From NCBI GenBank assembly GCA_017853885.1, contig JAFMIR010000001.1, positions 1 to 64,000 of the forward strand: a stretch of 64,000 bases of DNA, read 5' to 3'. Of the stretch, positions 45,889-50,228 are shown one piece after another. This DNA is from Prosthecobacter sp. (lineage in GTDB: Bacteria; Verrucomicrobiota; Verrucomicrobiia; Verrucomicrobiales; Verrucomicrobiaceae). A model generated the notes under the pieces. It saw nothing but the letters and a program-made list of their open reading frames with translations. It was not told the DNA's origin and made no database searches. The first letter of the stretch is position 1; every line of letters starts with the position of its first letter. A program made the translations under genes and the position numbers.

Positions 45889-46030
45889 CAGCGGCAAAGG
45901 GAATCGGGAGACAACAACCCGTTGGGTAACCAAGCGTCGTTCCTGCGTGGTGTCGAGGAAATGCCTGCTTTCAGGTGAGGTTCCACCTTTTTTGTCGTAT
46001 CAGGTTTATCCTCCATCCCATCATACCGCC

Positions 46031-47149
46031 ATGAAATCCGCTCTTCTCTCTCTTCTGGCCTTATCGACCCTCACCGCGGCTCCAGTCGCTGTTTCTCCCT
46101 CACTGATTGAATCCCCACAGACGGGCGGTTTGGAGTTCAAGTCGCTCTCATCCATCAGTTTTGGGCCAAACGGCTTGCTGCTCGTCGCAGAGCCTGGCAC
46201 CGCGAGCGTGGTCGCCATTCAAACAGGAGATGTCGGTCCGGAGACAAAGGTATTGGAGAAGCCGGTGGCGGATATCGGCAGCGTGATCGCCGGCGGACTC
46301 GGTGCAAAAAAGGAGGACATCACGATCAAAGACCTCGCGGCGAATCCGGCAAGCGGTCGCGTATACCTCGCGGTACAGCGTCGCCCGGACAACGCGGTGC
46401 TCATCATCACCGTGGATGCAGCTGGCAAGGTGGCTCCGTTTGACACCGCGAACCTGCCGTGGGCCCGCATCACCCTGCCGGGTGGCACGGCCAGCAAGGT
46501 CACCCACATCACGGATGTGGCCTTCGATGGCACACGCGTCTTCGCCACCGGCACCTGCAACGAGGAATTTGCTTCTCGCATCTTCACGATTCCGGTGCCG
46601 ATCCAGCACGGCAGCAGCGCAAAGGTTTTCAGTGCAGAGACCTACCACGTGGCTCACCGAAAGTGGGAGACCAAGGCCCCGATTCAAAGCTTCATCCCGT
46701 ATTCTGAGAATGGCGAGACTTTTGTCGTGGGTGCTTTTGCCTGCACACCGGTGGCCAAGTTCAAGGTCGATGACCTGCAAAGCGGTGCCCAAGTCAAGGG
46801 AGTGAGTATGGTGGAACTCGGTAGCGGCAACCGGCCGCTCGATCTCTTCAGCTACACCGACAAGAGTGGCAAGGACTGGCTAGTGGTGCACACCCAGCGC
46901 TTTGCCAAAAACAGCTTTGGCCCCAGTCAAATGTGGGCGGCACGCATCAGCATGGACTATCTAAATGCTGCGCAGACCAATGAAAACGCGGCCCGCCGCG
47001 ACGACAAAAAAACCAAGGGCCCCGATGGCATCGAAATCGTCGATTCACTCTTTGGAGCGGTGCAGGCGGACAAGCTCGACAACACCCGAGCGATCATCCT
47101 GAAGGACAACAAAGGCACGCTGAGCTTGGAAGTGGCCACTTTGCCGTGA
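46031..47149 (+). CDS. Secreted beta-propeller protein, family unknown
   Basis: A 372-residue protein with signal peptide MKSALLSLLALSTLTAAP. Repeated beta-rich segments (FGPNGLLLVAEPGTASVVAIQTG, NPASGRVYLAVQRRPDN, TDVAFDGTRVFATG, RPLDLFSYTDKSGKDWLVV) indicate a propeller of NHL or lactonase type. No catalytic residue can be named. The longer frame to 45815 contains non-native sequence and overlaps the divergent VWA gene. It is followed after 25 nt by an Ig-like protein gene on the same strand. Confidence 0.8.
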   Translation: MKSALLSLLALSTLTAAPVAVSPSLIESPQTGGLEFKSLSSISFGPNGLLLVAEPGTASVVAIQTGDVGPETKVLEKPVADIGSVIAGGLGAKKEDITIKDLAANPASGRVYLAVQRRPDNAVLIITVDAAGKVAPFDTANLPWARITLPGGTASKVTHITDVAFDGTRVFATGTCNEEFASRIFTIPVPIQHGSSAKVFSAETYHVAHRKWETKAPIQSFIPYSENGETFVVGAFACTPVAKFKVDDLQSGAQVKGVSMVELGSGNRPLDLFSYTDKSGKDWLVVHTQRFAKNSFGPSQMWAARISMDYLNAAQTNENAARRDDKKTKGPDGIEIVDSLFGAVQADKLDNTRAIILKDNKGTLSLEVATLP

Positions 47150-47174
47150 AGAACCAAGGGATGAGAATTGAATC

Positions 47175-48245
47175 ATGAGAACGGAAGATGATCCATGGGC
47201 GGCGGCGGTATCCGCGACTGTCTCGCGCCAATTTTCCATTTTCAGTCTGATCGGCCTGCTCGCCTTTTCGCCACTACACGCTGACCCGCCACCCAGACTC
47301 CGCATCGAGCAAAAAGCTCTCTCTGTCATTGCATCATCCGTCGCCATTCAAGACATCATGGTGTTCCTCAAAGGTTCACCGGAACCTGTGTTTGGAGCCT
47401 TCCGGCATGGCATCTTTATCCCGGCAGCCCCATTTGTTCGCGGCCAGAGCTACAAAGTGAGGTTGAGCTTTGCCGATGGTTCCACGACGAGCCAAGAAAT
47501 GACTTTCGGAGAAGCCTCTCTTGCAAAGCCCACTGTCCACCTCTCCCCCGCCACTGGCCACATTCCAGCCAACACGCTGAAGCTGTATCTCGACTTCTCG
47601 GAACCGATGGAGCAGGGCGTGTTCCTGAGACATCTGATGTTGCAGAGGCGAAAAGGCGAGGAAGTCGTGGGAGCTTTCCGGGAGACAGAGCTGTGGTCGC
47701 CAGATGGAAAACGGCTCACCGTGCTGCTGCATCCAGGGCGGCAGAAGACGGGTGTGAACCTCCAAGTGGATGAAGGGCCGGTTTTACTGGCAGGAGAGCC
47801 TCACAGTCTTGTCGTCTCGGGGCAGTGGCGGTCCACCAGCGGCGTGCAGTTGGGCAAAGAGGTGGCTTTCAGGCTCGAAGCCATCGCCGCAGATCATAAC
47901 CCGCCCGATCCAACCCGCTGGCAGGTGCAGGTGCCAAAAGCCGCGACAATGCAACCGCTCGTGGTCATCACGGACGAACTGTTTGAGCCTCAAATCTTCC
48001 AGCGAGCACTCCAATTGCCCGAAGTGTCTGGCCAAGCCGAAGCCAGTGTCATCGAACAGAAGCGCCTCGAATGGCGTTTCAAGCCCGTGAAGCCGTGGCC
48101 GCCAGGCGAATATGAAGTCACCATCGATCCCGATCTCGAAGACTTGGCAGGTAACACGACGCAAGGACCCTTCGAAGTCAATTTGACCACCGCGAAAATG
48201 CCTGTGCGGTCGAGCAGCATTTCCTTCTGCGTGCCAGTGCGCTGA
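47175..48245 (+). CDS. Secreted protein with SbsA/Big_5-like Ig domains
   Basis: A 356-residue exported protein (signal segment ending near SPLHADP). The segment VHLSPATGHIPANTLKLYLDFSEPMEQGVFLRHL is typical of SbsA/Big_5-type Ig-like domains, and a second Ig-like region (GEYEVTIDPDLEDLAGNTTQGPFEV) closes the protein. Such domains bind other proteins or carbohydrates at the cell surface. It ends about 97 nt before the NagB-PIG-L fusion start and is probably in the same transcript as the propeller gene upstream. Confidence 0.8.
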   Translation: MRTEDDPWAAAVSATVSRQFSIFSLIGLLAFSPLHADPPPRLRIEQKALSVIASSVAIQDIMVFLKGSPEPVFGAFRHGIFIPAAPFVRGQSYKVRLSFADGSTTSQEMTFGEASLAKPTVHLSPATGHIPANTLKLYLDFSEPMEQGVFLRHLMLQRRKGEEVVGAFRETELWSPDGKRLTVLLHPGRQKTGVNLQVDEGPVLLAGEPHSLVVSGQWRSTSGVQLGKEVAFRLEAIAADHNPPDPTRWQVQVPKAATMQPLVVITDELFEPQIFQRALQLPEVSGQAEASVIEQKRLEWRFKPVKPWPPGEYEVTIDPDLEDLAGNTTQGPFEVNLTTAKMPVRSSSISFCVPVR

Positions 48246-48341
48246 TGAGGCGCATATTTTGCCTCTGCACACAGCGTGGAGTTGACCCCTGCCAAGGCCG
48301 GAGAACTGTATGCGCGTCTTTTTCCACCAACCACCGCCCTC

Positions 48342-50228
48342 ATGTCCATCCGCCCGCCCGCTGAAGCTTTCGAAAATGTCCCCACCGTGATCTTTACCGA
48401 CTCCGCCGCCGCCGCAAAGGCCTTGGCGCAAGAGGTGAAAGAGATCATCGCTACGAAAAACCAAGCCGGACAGCCTGCTGTGCTCGGCATGGCCACGGGC
48501 TCCACACCCGTACCGTTTTACCGCGAGCTGATCCGCCTGCACAAGGACGAGGGCCTGAGCTTCAAGAATGTTATCACCTTCAACCTCGATGAGTACTTCG
48601 GCCTCACGGCAGACCATCCAGAAAGCTACGCACGCTTCATGGCGGAGCAGCTCTTCGACCACATCGACATCCCGAAGGCGAACATCAACATCCCAAGCGG
48701 CACAGTTTCGAGTGATCAGGTCTTCAACCACTGCCGAGACTATGAGCAAAAGATCGATAGCGTGGGTGGCATCGATTTGCAGATCCTCGGCATCGGCCGC
48801 ACAGGCCATATCGGCTTCAACGAGCCCGGCTCGAGCCGTGACTCACTCACCCGCCGCATCACGCTGGACCGTGTGACACGTCAGGACGCGGCGAGTGACT
48901 TCCGCGGTGAACAGAACGTGCCGCACTTTGCCATCACGATGGGGGTCGGCACCATCCTGCGGGCGAAAAAGCTCGTGCTCATGGCCTGGGGTGAAAACAA
49001 AGCCAGCGTGGTAGCCAAGGCGGTCGAAGGTCCAATGACTGAGGCGGTTTCCGCCTCCTTCCTGCAAGACCATTCGGATGCACGTTTCTTCATCGACCAA
49101 GGTGCTTCACGCGAACTGACACGCATCAAGCTTCCTTGGCTGGTCGGGCCTGTCTTGTGGACACCACGTGAGACACGCCGTGCCATGGTGTGGCAGGCCT
49201 TCAAGACGAAGCGCCCGGTGTTGAAGCTCATCGACGAGCACTACAACGAGCACGGGCTCAGCGATCTGCTCTCGGAGCAAGGTCCGGCTTATCAGCTCAA
49301 CATCCGCATCTTCAACCAACTCCAACACACCATCACCGGCTGGCCCGGCGGCAAGCCCGACGAGGACGACACCTACCGCCCGGAGCGCGCGCGACCCTAT
49401 CCAAAACGCTGCCTAGTCTTCTCCCCCGAGCCGCAGGATGCCATCGTGGGCATGGGCGGCACGGTTGACCGCCTCATCGAGCAGGGCCACGACGTGCGCC
49501 TGATCTCGCTGACCTCCGGCAGCCTGCGCGTGCCGGACAGCGAGGCGGACAAGTTTGCGGAAACACTGCTGGAGCTGGCTTCAAACTCGGTGAAACCGGG
49601 CGATTGGAAGCCCCAGGTGAATTATGCGAAGCAAGCGCTTGGCCAACTGGAGGCGAAGGGCGAGTTCGGCGAGGACACGCCACTGCTACGCCAGCTCAAA
49701 GGTCTCATCCTGCGGGGCGAGTTGCGAGACGCAGCTCACGCGGTCGGTTTGAGCCACGACAAGGTGGTTTTTCTCGACCTGCCCTTCTACGAACAGGGTC
49801 GCTACCGCCGCTTCAAGAGCACGCAGACGGATGTCGATTCGATCAAGAAGCTGCTCTTGGAGCAAAAGCCGCATCAGATCTACCTCACTGGCGATGCGGC
49901 AGACCCGAGCAGTGTGAGCGGCATCACCTTCCGTCTCATCATGAACGCCCTGCAGGCCTGCGCGGCCGAAGAATTCGCCGGCGCGTGCAGCCTCTGGCTA
50001 TATCGCGGCAAGGAACGTGCGCTGGAGCCACATGAAATTGATATGGCCGTACCGATGAGCCCGCTGCAGCTCGAACGCAAAGCCAACGCACTCAACCGCT
50101 ACAGCGCCCTCAGCAGCCTCGAAAAAGAGGCGCCGGAAACCAATCGCGAAAACGCCCGCCAATACGACAAGCTCGGCCTCGCTGAATACGAGGCCATCGA
50201 GACCTTTCAGCGCTGGCGGAGGGCGTGA
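48342..50228 (+). CDS. Glucosamine-6-phosphate deaminase (NagB) fused to degenerate PIG-L domain
   Basis: A protein of about 628 residues. The N-terminal NagB domain (about 14-280) converts glucosamine-6-phosphate to fructose-6-phosphate plus ammonia; ATGSTP (51-56), NLDEYFGL with Asp83 and Glu84, and GIGRTGHIGFNEPG with His156 are all kept. The C-terminal region (about 355-610) aligns with the PIG-L/LmbE deacetylase fold, but the HPDD metal motif reads E363-P-Q365-D366 and the second motif (usually DPHGTH) reads DPSSVS at 521-526. The zinc ligands are therefore lost. A GTG at 48276 could add 22 residues. The fusion resembles those in Bacteroidetes. Confidence 0.92.
   Translation: MSIRPPAEAFENVPTVIFTDSAAAAKALAQEVKEIIATKNQAGQPAVLGMATGSTPVPFYRELIRLHKDEGLSFKNVITFNLDEYFGLTADHPESYARFMAEQLFDHIDIPKANINIPSGTVSSDQVFNHCRDYEQKIDSVGGIDLQILGIGRTGHIGFNEPGSSRDSLTRRITLDRVTRQDAASDFRGEQNVPHFAITMGVGTILRAKKLVLMAWGENKASVVAKAVEGPMTEAVSASFLQDHSDARFFIDQGASRELTRIKLPWLVGPVLWTPRETRRAMVWQAFKTKRPVLKLIDEHYNEHGLSDLLSEQGPAYQLNIRIFNQLQHTITGWPGGKPDEDDTYRPERARPYPKRCLVFSPEPQDAIVGMGGTVDRLIEQGHDVRLISLTSGSLRVPDSEADKFAETLLELASNSVKPGDWKPQVNYAKQALGQLEAKGEFGEDTPLLRQLKGLILRGELRDAAHAVGLSHDKVVFLDLPFYEQGRYRRFKSTQTDVDSIKKLLLEQKPHQIYLTGDAADPSSVSGITFRLIMNALQACAAEEFAGACSLWLYRGKERALEPHEIDMAVPMSPLQLERKANALNRYSALSSLEKEAPETNRENARQYDKLGLAEYEAIETFQRWRRA

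Follow-up and report, generated by a model that had tools for sequence, protein, structure and literature searches.

In Prosthecobacter sp., a glucosamine-6-phosphate deaminase (NagB) is fused to a PIG-L half that has lost its zinc site, and the same loss is shared by a whole clade of Verrucomicrobiota fusions. The PIG-L half is almost certainly a pseudoenzyme, judging by its residues; a sequence-only reading of this DNA had proposed this, and the zinc-site loss across the clade upholds it. The strongest new observation of our analysis is a set of mirror-image fusions, found in some gut Bacteroidales, in which it is the NagB half that is dead. Our search found no open-access paper describing a NagB-PIG-L fusion.

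The fusion gene lies in the window, by which we mean the whole stretch of 64,000 nucleotides that was analysed (Table 1). By its nearest named loci, the genome appears to fall within Verrucomicrobiaceae, close to Prosthecobacter. The reading frame and residue numbering given earlier were confirmed: a re-read of the translation agrees with them letter for letter. The use of an alternative GTG start at 48276 would give a product of 650 aa. Over its full length (residues 8-626), the protein matches the fusion family NF002557 (PRK02122) with an E-value of 1.5e-226 and 753.5 bits, at a cut-off of 384. In Pfam, the match to PF01182 covers residues 20-241 (E 1.5e-21) and the match to PIG-L, PF02585, covers residues 358-518 (38 bits, cut-off 28.2). 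The nagB profile TIGR00502 gives 267.4 bits, above its cut-off of 236.9. The linker with the invariant GWPGG has no Pfam match of its own, and its conservation is close to that of NagB in both the intact and the degenerate clades.

Table 1. Features of the NagB-PIG-L fusion gene in the window.
Feature	Residues	Coordinates	Strand	Basis
NagB-pseudoPIG-L fusion gene	628 aa plus stop	48342..50228	+	
NagB (glucosamine-6-phosphate deaminase) half	12-262	48375..49127	+	PF01182, TIGR00502; structure match 2bkv, Z 37.5
Asp83 (E. coli-type NagB Asp72)	83	48588..48590	+	alignment to solved NagB; 71/71 in clade
GIGRTGHIGFNE, including His156 and Glu161 (His143, Glu148)	150-161	48789..48824	+	alignment to solved NagB; clade conservation
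Conserved linker module, invariant GWPGG	263-354	49128..49403	+	22 linker positions conserved in intact and degenerate clades
Degenerate PIG-L (LmbE-like) half	355-628	49404..50225	+	PF02585; structure matches BshB Z 21.3, MshB Z 17.5
Altered zinc motif 1, SPEPQDA (active relatives SPHPDDD)	361-367	49422..49442	+	translation, homologue alignment
GRYRRF, clade-specific motif; R489 and F491 invariant	486-491	49797..49814	+	position-conservation comparison
Altered zinc motif 2, DPSSVS (active relatives DPHGTH)	521-526	49902..49919	+	translation, homologue alignment
YSAL, at the former C-terminal HQSQ motif of intact fusions	587-590	50100..50111	+	conservation comparison

By fold and profile (PF02585; BshB Z 21.3), the C-terminal half belongs to the PIG-L/LmbE-like superfamily. 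It has the same fold as diacetylchitobiose deacetylase, BshB and MshB, with Z-scores from 17 to 21. Unlike these deacetylases, it is fused to NagB and has neither the general base nor the two His ligands. In LmbE-like enzymes with the motif HxD1D2 plus a further His, the metal is coordinated by both His residues and D2, and D1 acts as general base (PMC4101496). Motif 1 of an intact fusion aligns directly with EPHPDDCVIGMGGT of diacetylchitobiose deacetylase. The motifs of the window protein are those described earlier, SPEPQD at 361-366 and DPSSVS at 521-526, and by the rule above they do not form a zinc site with a catalytic Asp. The first ligand is changed from His to E363, the base from Asp to Q365 and the third ligand from His to S526; the assisting His is also gone (S523). 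In our reading of the HxxH spacing, positions 526 and 523 correspond to His147 and His144 of MshB. The claim of zinc-site loss thus stands for both His ligands and the catalytic Asp, but not for every residue. D366, itself a zinc ligand, is kept, so that the loss comprises two of three ligands, the general base and the assisting His.

The NagB half is about 40-44% identical to the NagB proteins of B. subtilis and V. cholerae (2bkv, 5hj5) and keeps their catalytic Asp, His, Glu and Lys. It differs from them in having Thr at the Asp141 position, Ile in place of Lys160 and a C-terminal extension of about 365 residues. The residues D83, H156, E161 and K220 (E. coli-type D72, H143, E148 and K208) are present in all 71 clade members. 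The earlier view that NagB keeps its active site agrees with this conservation, and the half looks catalytic. It is also the only PF01182 match in the genome, which is 94% complete. We take Arg158 and Lys160 to be the allosteric site of E. coli NagB. The window protein has the equivalent of Arg158 (R171) and Ile (I173) at Lys160, and so does not carry the pair of the allosteric hexameric enzymes. Lys160 is absent from all sampled fusions; nearly the whole family, intact or degenerate, has Ile or Val there. A different regulator is thus possible for a NagB half without Lys160. Since this loss is common to intact fusions, it is not a consequence of the PIG-L change. That the PIG-L half senses GlcNAc-6-P, as was suggested, is speculation.

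We compared 147 homologues in a first round, 71 of the degenerate clade and 76 others. All 71 clade members show the loss of the zinc site, and the pattern H/D/D/H/H was found in 74 of the 76 others, which is far beyond chance. The window protein resembles the other NF002557/PRK02122 fusions (Bacteroidota, Planctomycetota and some Opitutales) in the full-length match, the domain order, the NagB residues and the linker. Intact members of this family carry HPDD and DPHGTH, whereas the clade of the window carries EPxD and DP[S/L]S and has lost most pocket residues. Within the clade, P364 and P522 are present in 71 of 71 sequences, E363 in 70, S524 in 68 and D366 in 65 (Glu in three). Positions 365 and 526 drift, the latter being mostly S, A, P or Q, with His in one member.

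A tree from which the motif columns had been left out places the degenerate sequences together on one side of a branch, with an SH-aLRT support of 100. They span Verrucomicrobiales and Opitutales; the latter name is our shorthand for the part outside Verrucomicrobiales and is anchored by one MAG (L047, Opitutia). Alignment of the Verrucomicrobiota homologues, proposed earlier as a check, showed that all close and order-level fusion relatives share the loss; it is present in every fusion sequence that we examined within the genus and order of the window. Intact copies form a second, separate Opitutales clade. The intact form is also found in nearly all sampled Bacteroidota, Balneolota and Planctomycetota, with few exceptions, in line with the earlier statement that Bacteroidetes have fusions with intact PIG-L motifs. 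Because one genome (G124) encodes an intact and a degenerate copy, the two forms are distinct subfamilies, and because other PIG-L proteins have the site, its loss is the derived state. No copy of the window's form was found on plasmids or in viruses; the ten near-full-length plasmid matches were all from Bacteroidota.

Constraint on the degenerate half was evaluated by comparison of close relatives. The median dN/dS was 0.135 for PIG-L and 0.076 for NagB; in many pairs, dS was close to saturation. The PIG-L/NagB rate ratio was 1.91 in the degenerate clade versus 1.14 in intact fusions. This indicates that the constraint on PIG-L is partly relaxed, yet clearly present. In the degenerate clade, conservation has been lost at 47 PIG-L positions that intact fusions conserve, among them the C-terminal HQSQKD region, and 26 positions are newly constrained, chiefly R450 and GRYRxF (486-491). 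Only six NagB positions have lost constraint. AlphaFold gave confident models for both the window protein (pLDDT 90.7) and an intact relative (88.6), and in its model the degenerate half still folds as PIG-L. It is likely that this half is retained for a non-catalytic job.

The mirror-image form was found in eight Bacteroidales-type fusions (L168, L169, L236, L237 and L238-L241). Their NagB half is dead, with Asp72 replaced by Tyr and His143 by Asn, and two of them have also lost Glu148; the PIG-L half is intact. The group L238-L241 shows 63-85% identity to the Phocaeicola copy. A protein of this type, WP_007753536.1 of Bacteroides finegoldii, has the same architecture as the window protein and likewise retains one dead half; however, there it is NagB that is dead. 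Three of the eight (L236, L237, L238) have a gene for a canonical NagB, separate from the fusion, directly upstream. Two are annotated as glucosamine-6-phosphate deaminase in public records, which is an annotation error, since they have no deaminase site. The two halves have thus died reciprocally, and each can die while its fused partner stays. The best reading is that either half of an ancestral deacetylase-deaminase can become a retained pseudoenzyme.

About 230 distinct fusions were classified. Both sites are present in 151 of them, 67 are of the Verrucomicrobiota form, in 9 only NagB is dead, and 3 show other PIG-L losses; none has both halves dead. Because sampling was uneven, these numbers are not frequencies. 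Two Bacteroidota genomes (G570 and G622) contain, beside an intact copy, a second fusion with HPADD and DPxGTY (L230 and L232), and the PIG-L change in these copies is an independent loss. In another Bacteroidota genome, two copies encode a 371-aa NagB plus linker without the PIG-L half (G550:C6:302532-303635 and G550:C35:64752-65855).

Genomes of the Akkermansiaceae type (the family label is our assignment) encode a stand-alone NagB of the fusion type. Thus, the PIG-L half can be absent. A tree grouping this NagB with the degenerate fusions of Verrucomicrobiales was not rejected (AU p 0.718), with weak support for the grouping. Origin from a degenerate fusion is compatible with this, and a pre-fusion origin fits as well. 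If the former is right, the PIG-L half was finally dropped there.

We also assessed the relation of the fusion to NagA. The window's genome has a NagA-family gene on another contig (G000:C103), which scores 222.7 bits, just below the cut-off of 225.65. It also has four other PIG-L genes, and in both of the two that were read the first motif is HPDD. No NagA match was found in 56 of 77 fusion-bearing Bacteroidota genomes at a threshold of E 1e-20, which suggests a GlcNAc-6-phosphate deacetylase in the intact fusion that has so far been overlooked. An intact PIG-L half may replace NagA; this would fit the mirror-image case, and also the presence of GH20, transporter and ROK genes in the neighbourhood of intact fusions. 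We rejected the simple rule that an intact fusion replaces NagA and a degenerate one needs it. The pooled counts fit (NagA-family matches in about 55 of 64 degenerate-fusion genomes, many of these matches being short and below the curated cut-off, vs 26 of 88 intact ones), but they are confounded by lineage. In Opitutales alone the comparison was not significant (present in 5/11 intact and 11/17 degenerate, p 0.44). Of the 17 genomes with a degenerate fusion that belong to orders other than that of the window, 6 had no NagA match.

A conserved operon partner was looked for and discarded, as no window neighbour recurs widely. Two Pfam-less genes upstream of the fusion (window 46019-48245) keep their place beside it in two near relatives only, and the intact fusion of Flavilitoribacter nigricans has distant homologues of both genes nearby; the loci concerned are L035, L038 and L088. 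A NagA-like neighbour in L036 proved to be a weak 22% match. In several Verrucomicrobiales, a distant NagB-like gene adjoins a short NagA-like gene (G037:C99, G038:C570, G043:C34 and G052:C52); this pair possibly serves another amino sugar.

The explanation that we consider probable begins with a two-domain ancestor. Its PIG-L half would have used zinc to deacetylate a GlcNAc-type substrate, most probably GlcNAc-6-phosphate, and would have passed GlcN-6-phosphate on to the NagB half. The zinc site was lost in one lineage of Verrucomicrobiota; the sequences concerned form one clade, for which a single event is the simplest reading. NagB probably stayed active. In genomes that have a separate NagA-type enzyme, this may have taken over deacetylation. 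The dead half, which is subject to purifying selection and has kept its fold and gained new invariant residues, would be a non-catalytic partner that stabilises NagB, promotes its oligomerisation or regulates it. This explanation has two sharper versions. The fused NagB may simply need the half to fold or assemble. Such structural retention is a serious possibility to which we stop short of committing ourselves: the fold, the linker and the core glycine and proline residues are kept, the dead NagB half is likewise kept in the mirror case, and LmbE-type enzymes, BshB among them, assemble into hexamers (PMC4101496). However, structural need alone leaves unexplained the nearly invariant Glu363 (70/71) and the new R450/GRYRxF set, and the Akkermansiaceae NagB manages without the half. 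The other version makes a ligand sensor of the former active site. Its ligand, bound by E363, D366, S524 and the GRYRxF loop, would be a nucleotide sugar or the phosphate of an amino sugar, and the resulting allosteric control of NagB would replace the classical GlcNAc-6-P site. Such a sensor is consistent with the high constraint on E363, P364, P522 and S524 beside drifting positions 365 and 526, with the gain of GRYRxF and with the missing Lys160. However, the Lys160 loss, seen in intact fusions too, is independent of the PIG-L change, and the loop faces the pocket only presumably, from our knowledge of the family. We regard this version as conceivable and are somewhat doubtful of it. It is rather unlikely, in our opinion, that the old site was rebuilt from the same residues to read an amino-sugar metabolite and control the fused NagB, the only one in this genome, and that in Bacteroidales, conversely, a dead NagB half regulates an active deacetylase, so that one family would have evolved reciprocal pseudoenzyme control.

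Two further possibilities abandon the non-catalytic partner. The PIG-L half could still be an enzyme with changed chemistry, in which the conserved carboxylate pair E363 (70/71) and D366 (65/71, Glu in three) holds another metal, such as Mg, Mn or Ca. We find this quite improbable: at the third-ligand position, 526, most members have S, A, P or Q, the base position varies, and the conserved residues of the surrounding pocket have been lost. Alternatively, an unneeded domain might be decaying, or have recently decayed, in this genome alone, which would agree with the weaker constraint on PIG-L than on NagB. However, 71 sequences from two orders share the loss, and this clade-wide conservation excludes such decay; the frames are open without stops, dN/dS is 0.135 and there are new invariant residues. 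We give this possibility practically no credence.

Apparently, the dead half is a retained non-catalytic partner of NagB, as in the explanation that we prefer. Pseudoenzymes have mostly been studied singly, and here one fusion family supplies all the comparisons needed. Both halves are intact in some members, PIG-L is dead in the Verrucomicrobiota clade, NagB is dead in Bacteroidales and PIG-L is absent in Akkermansiaceae. Thus, the reason why a dead half is retained becomes directly testable.
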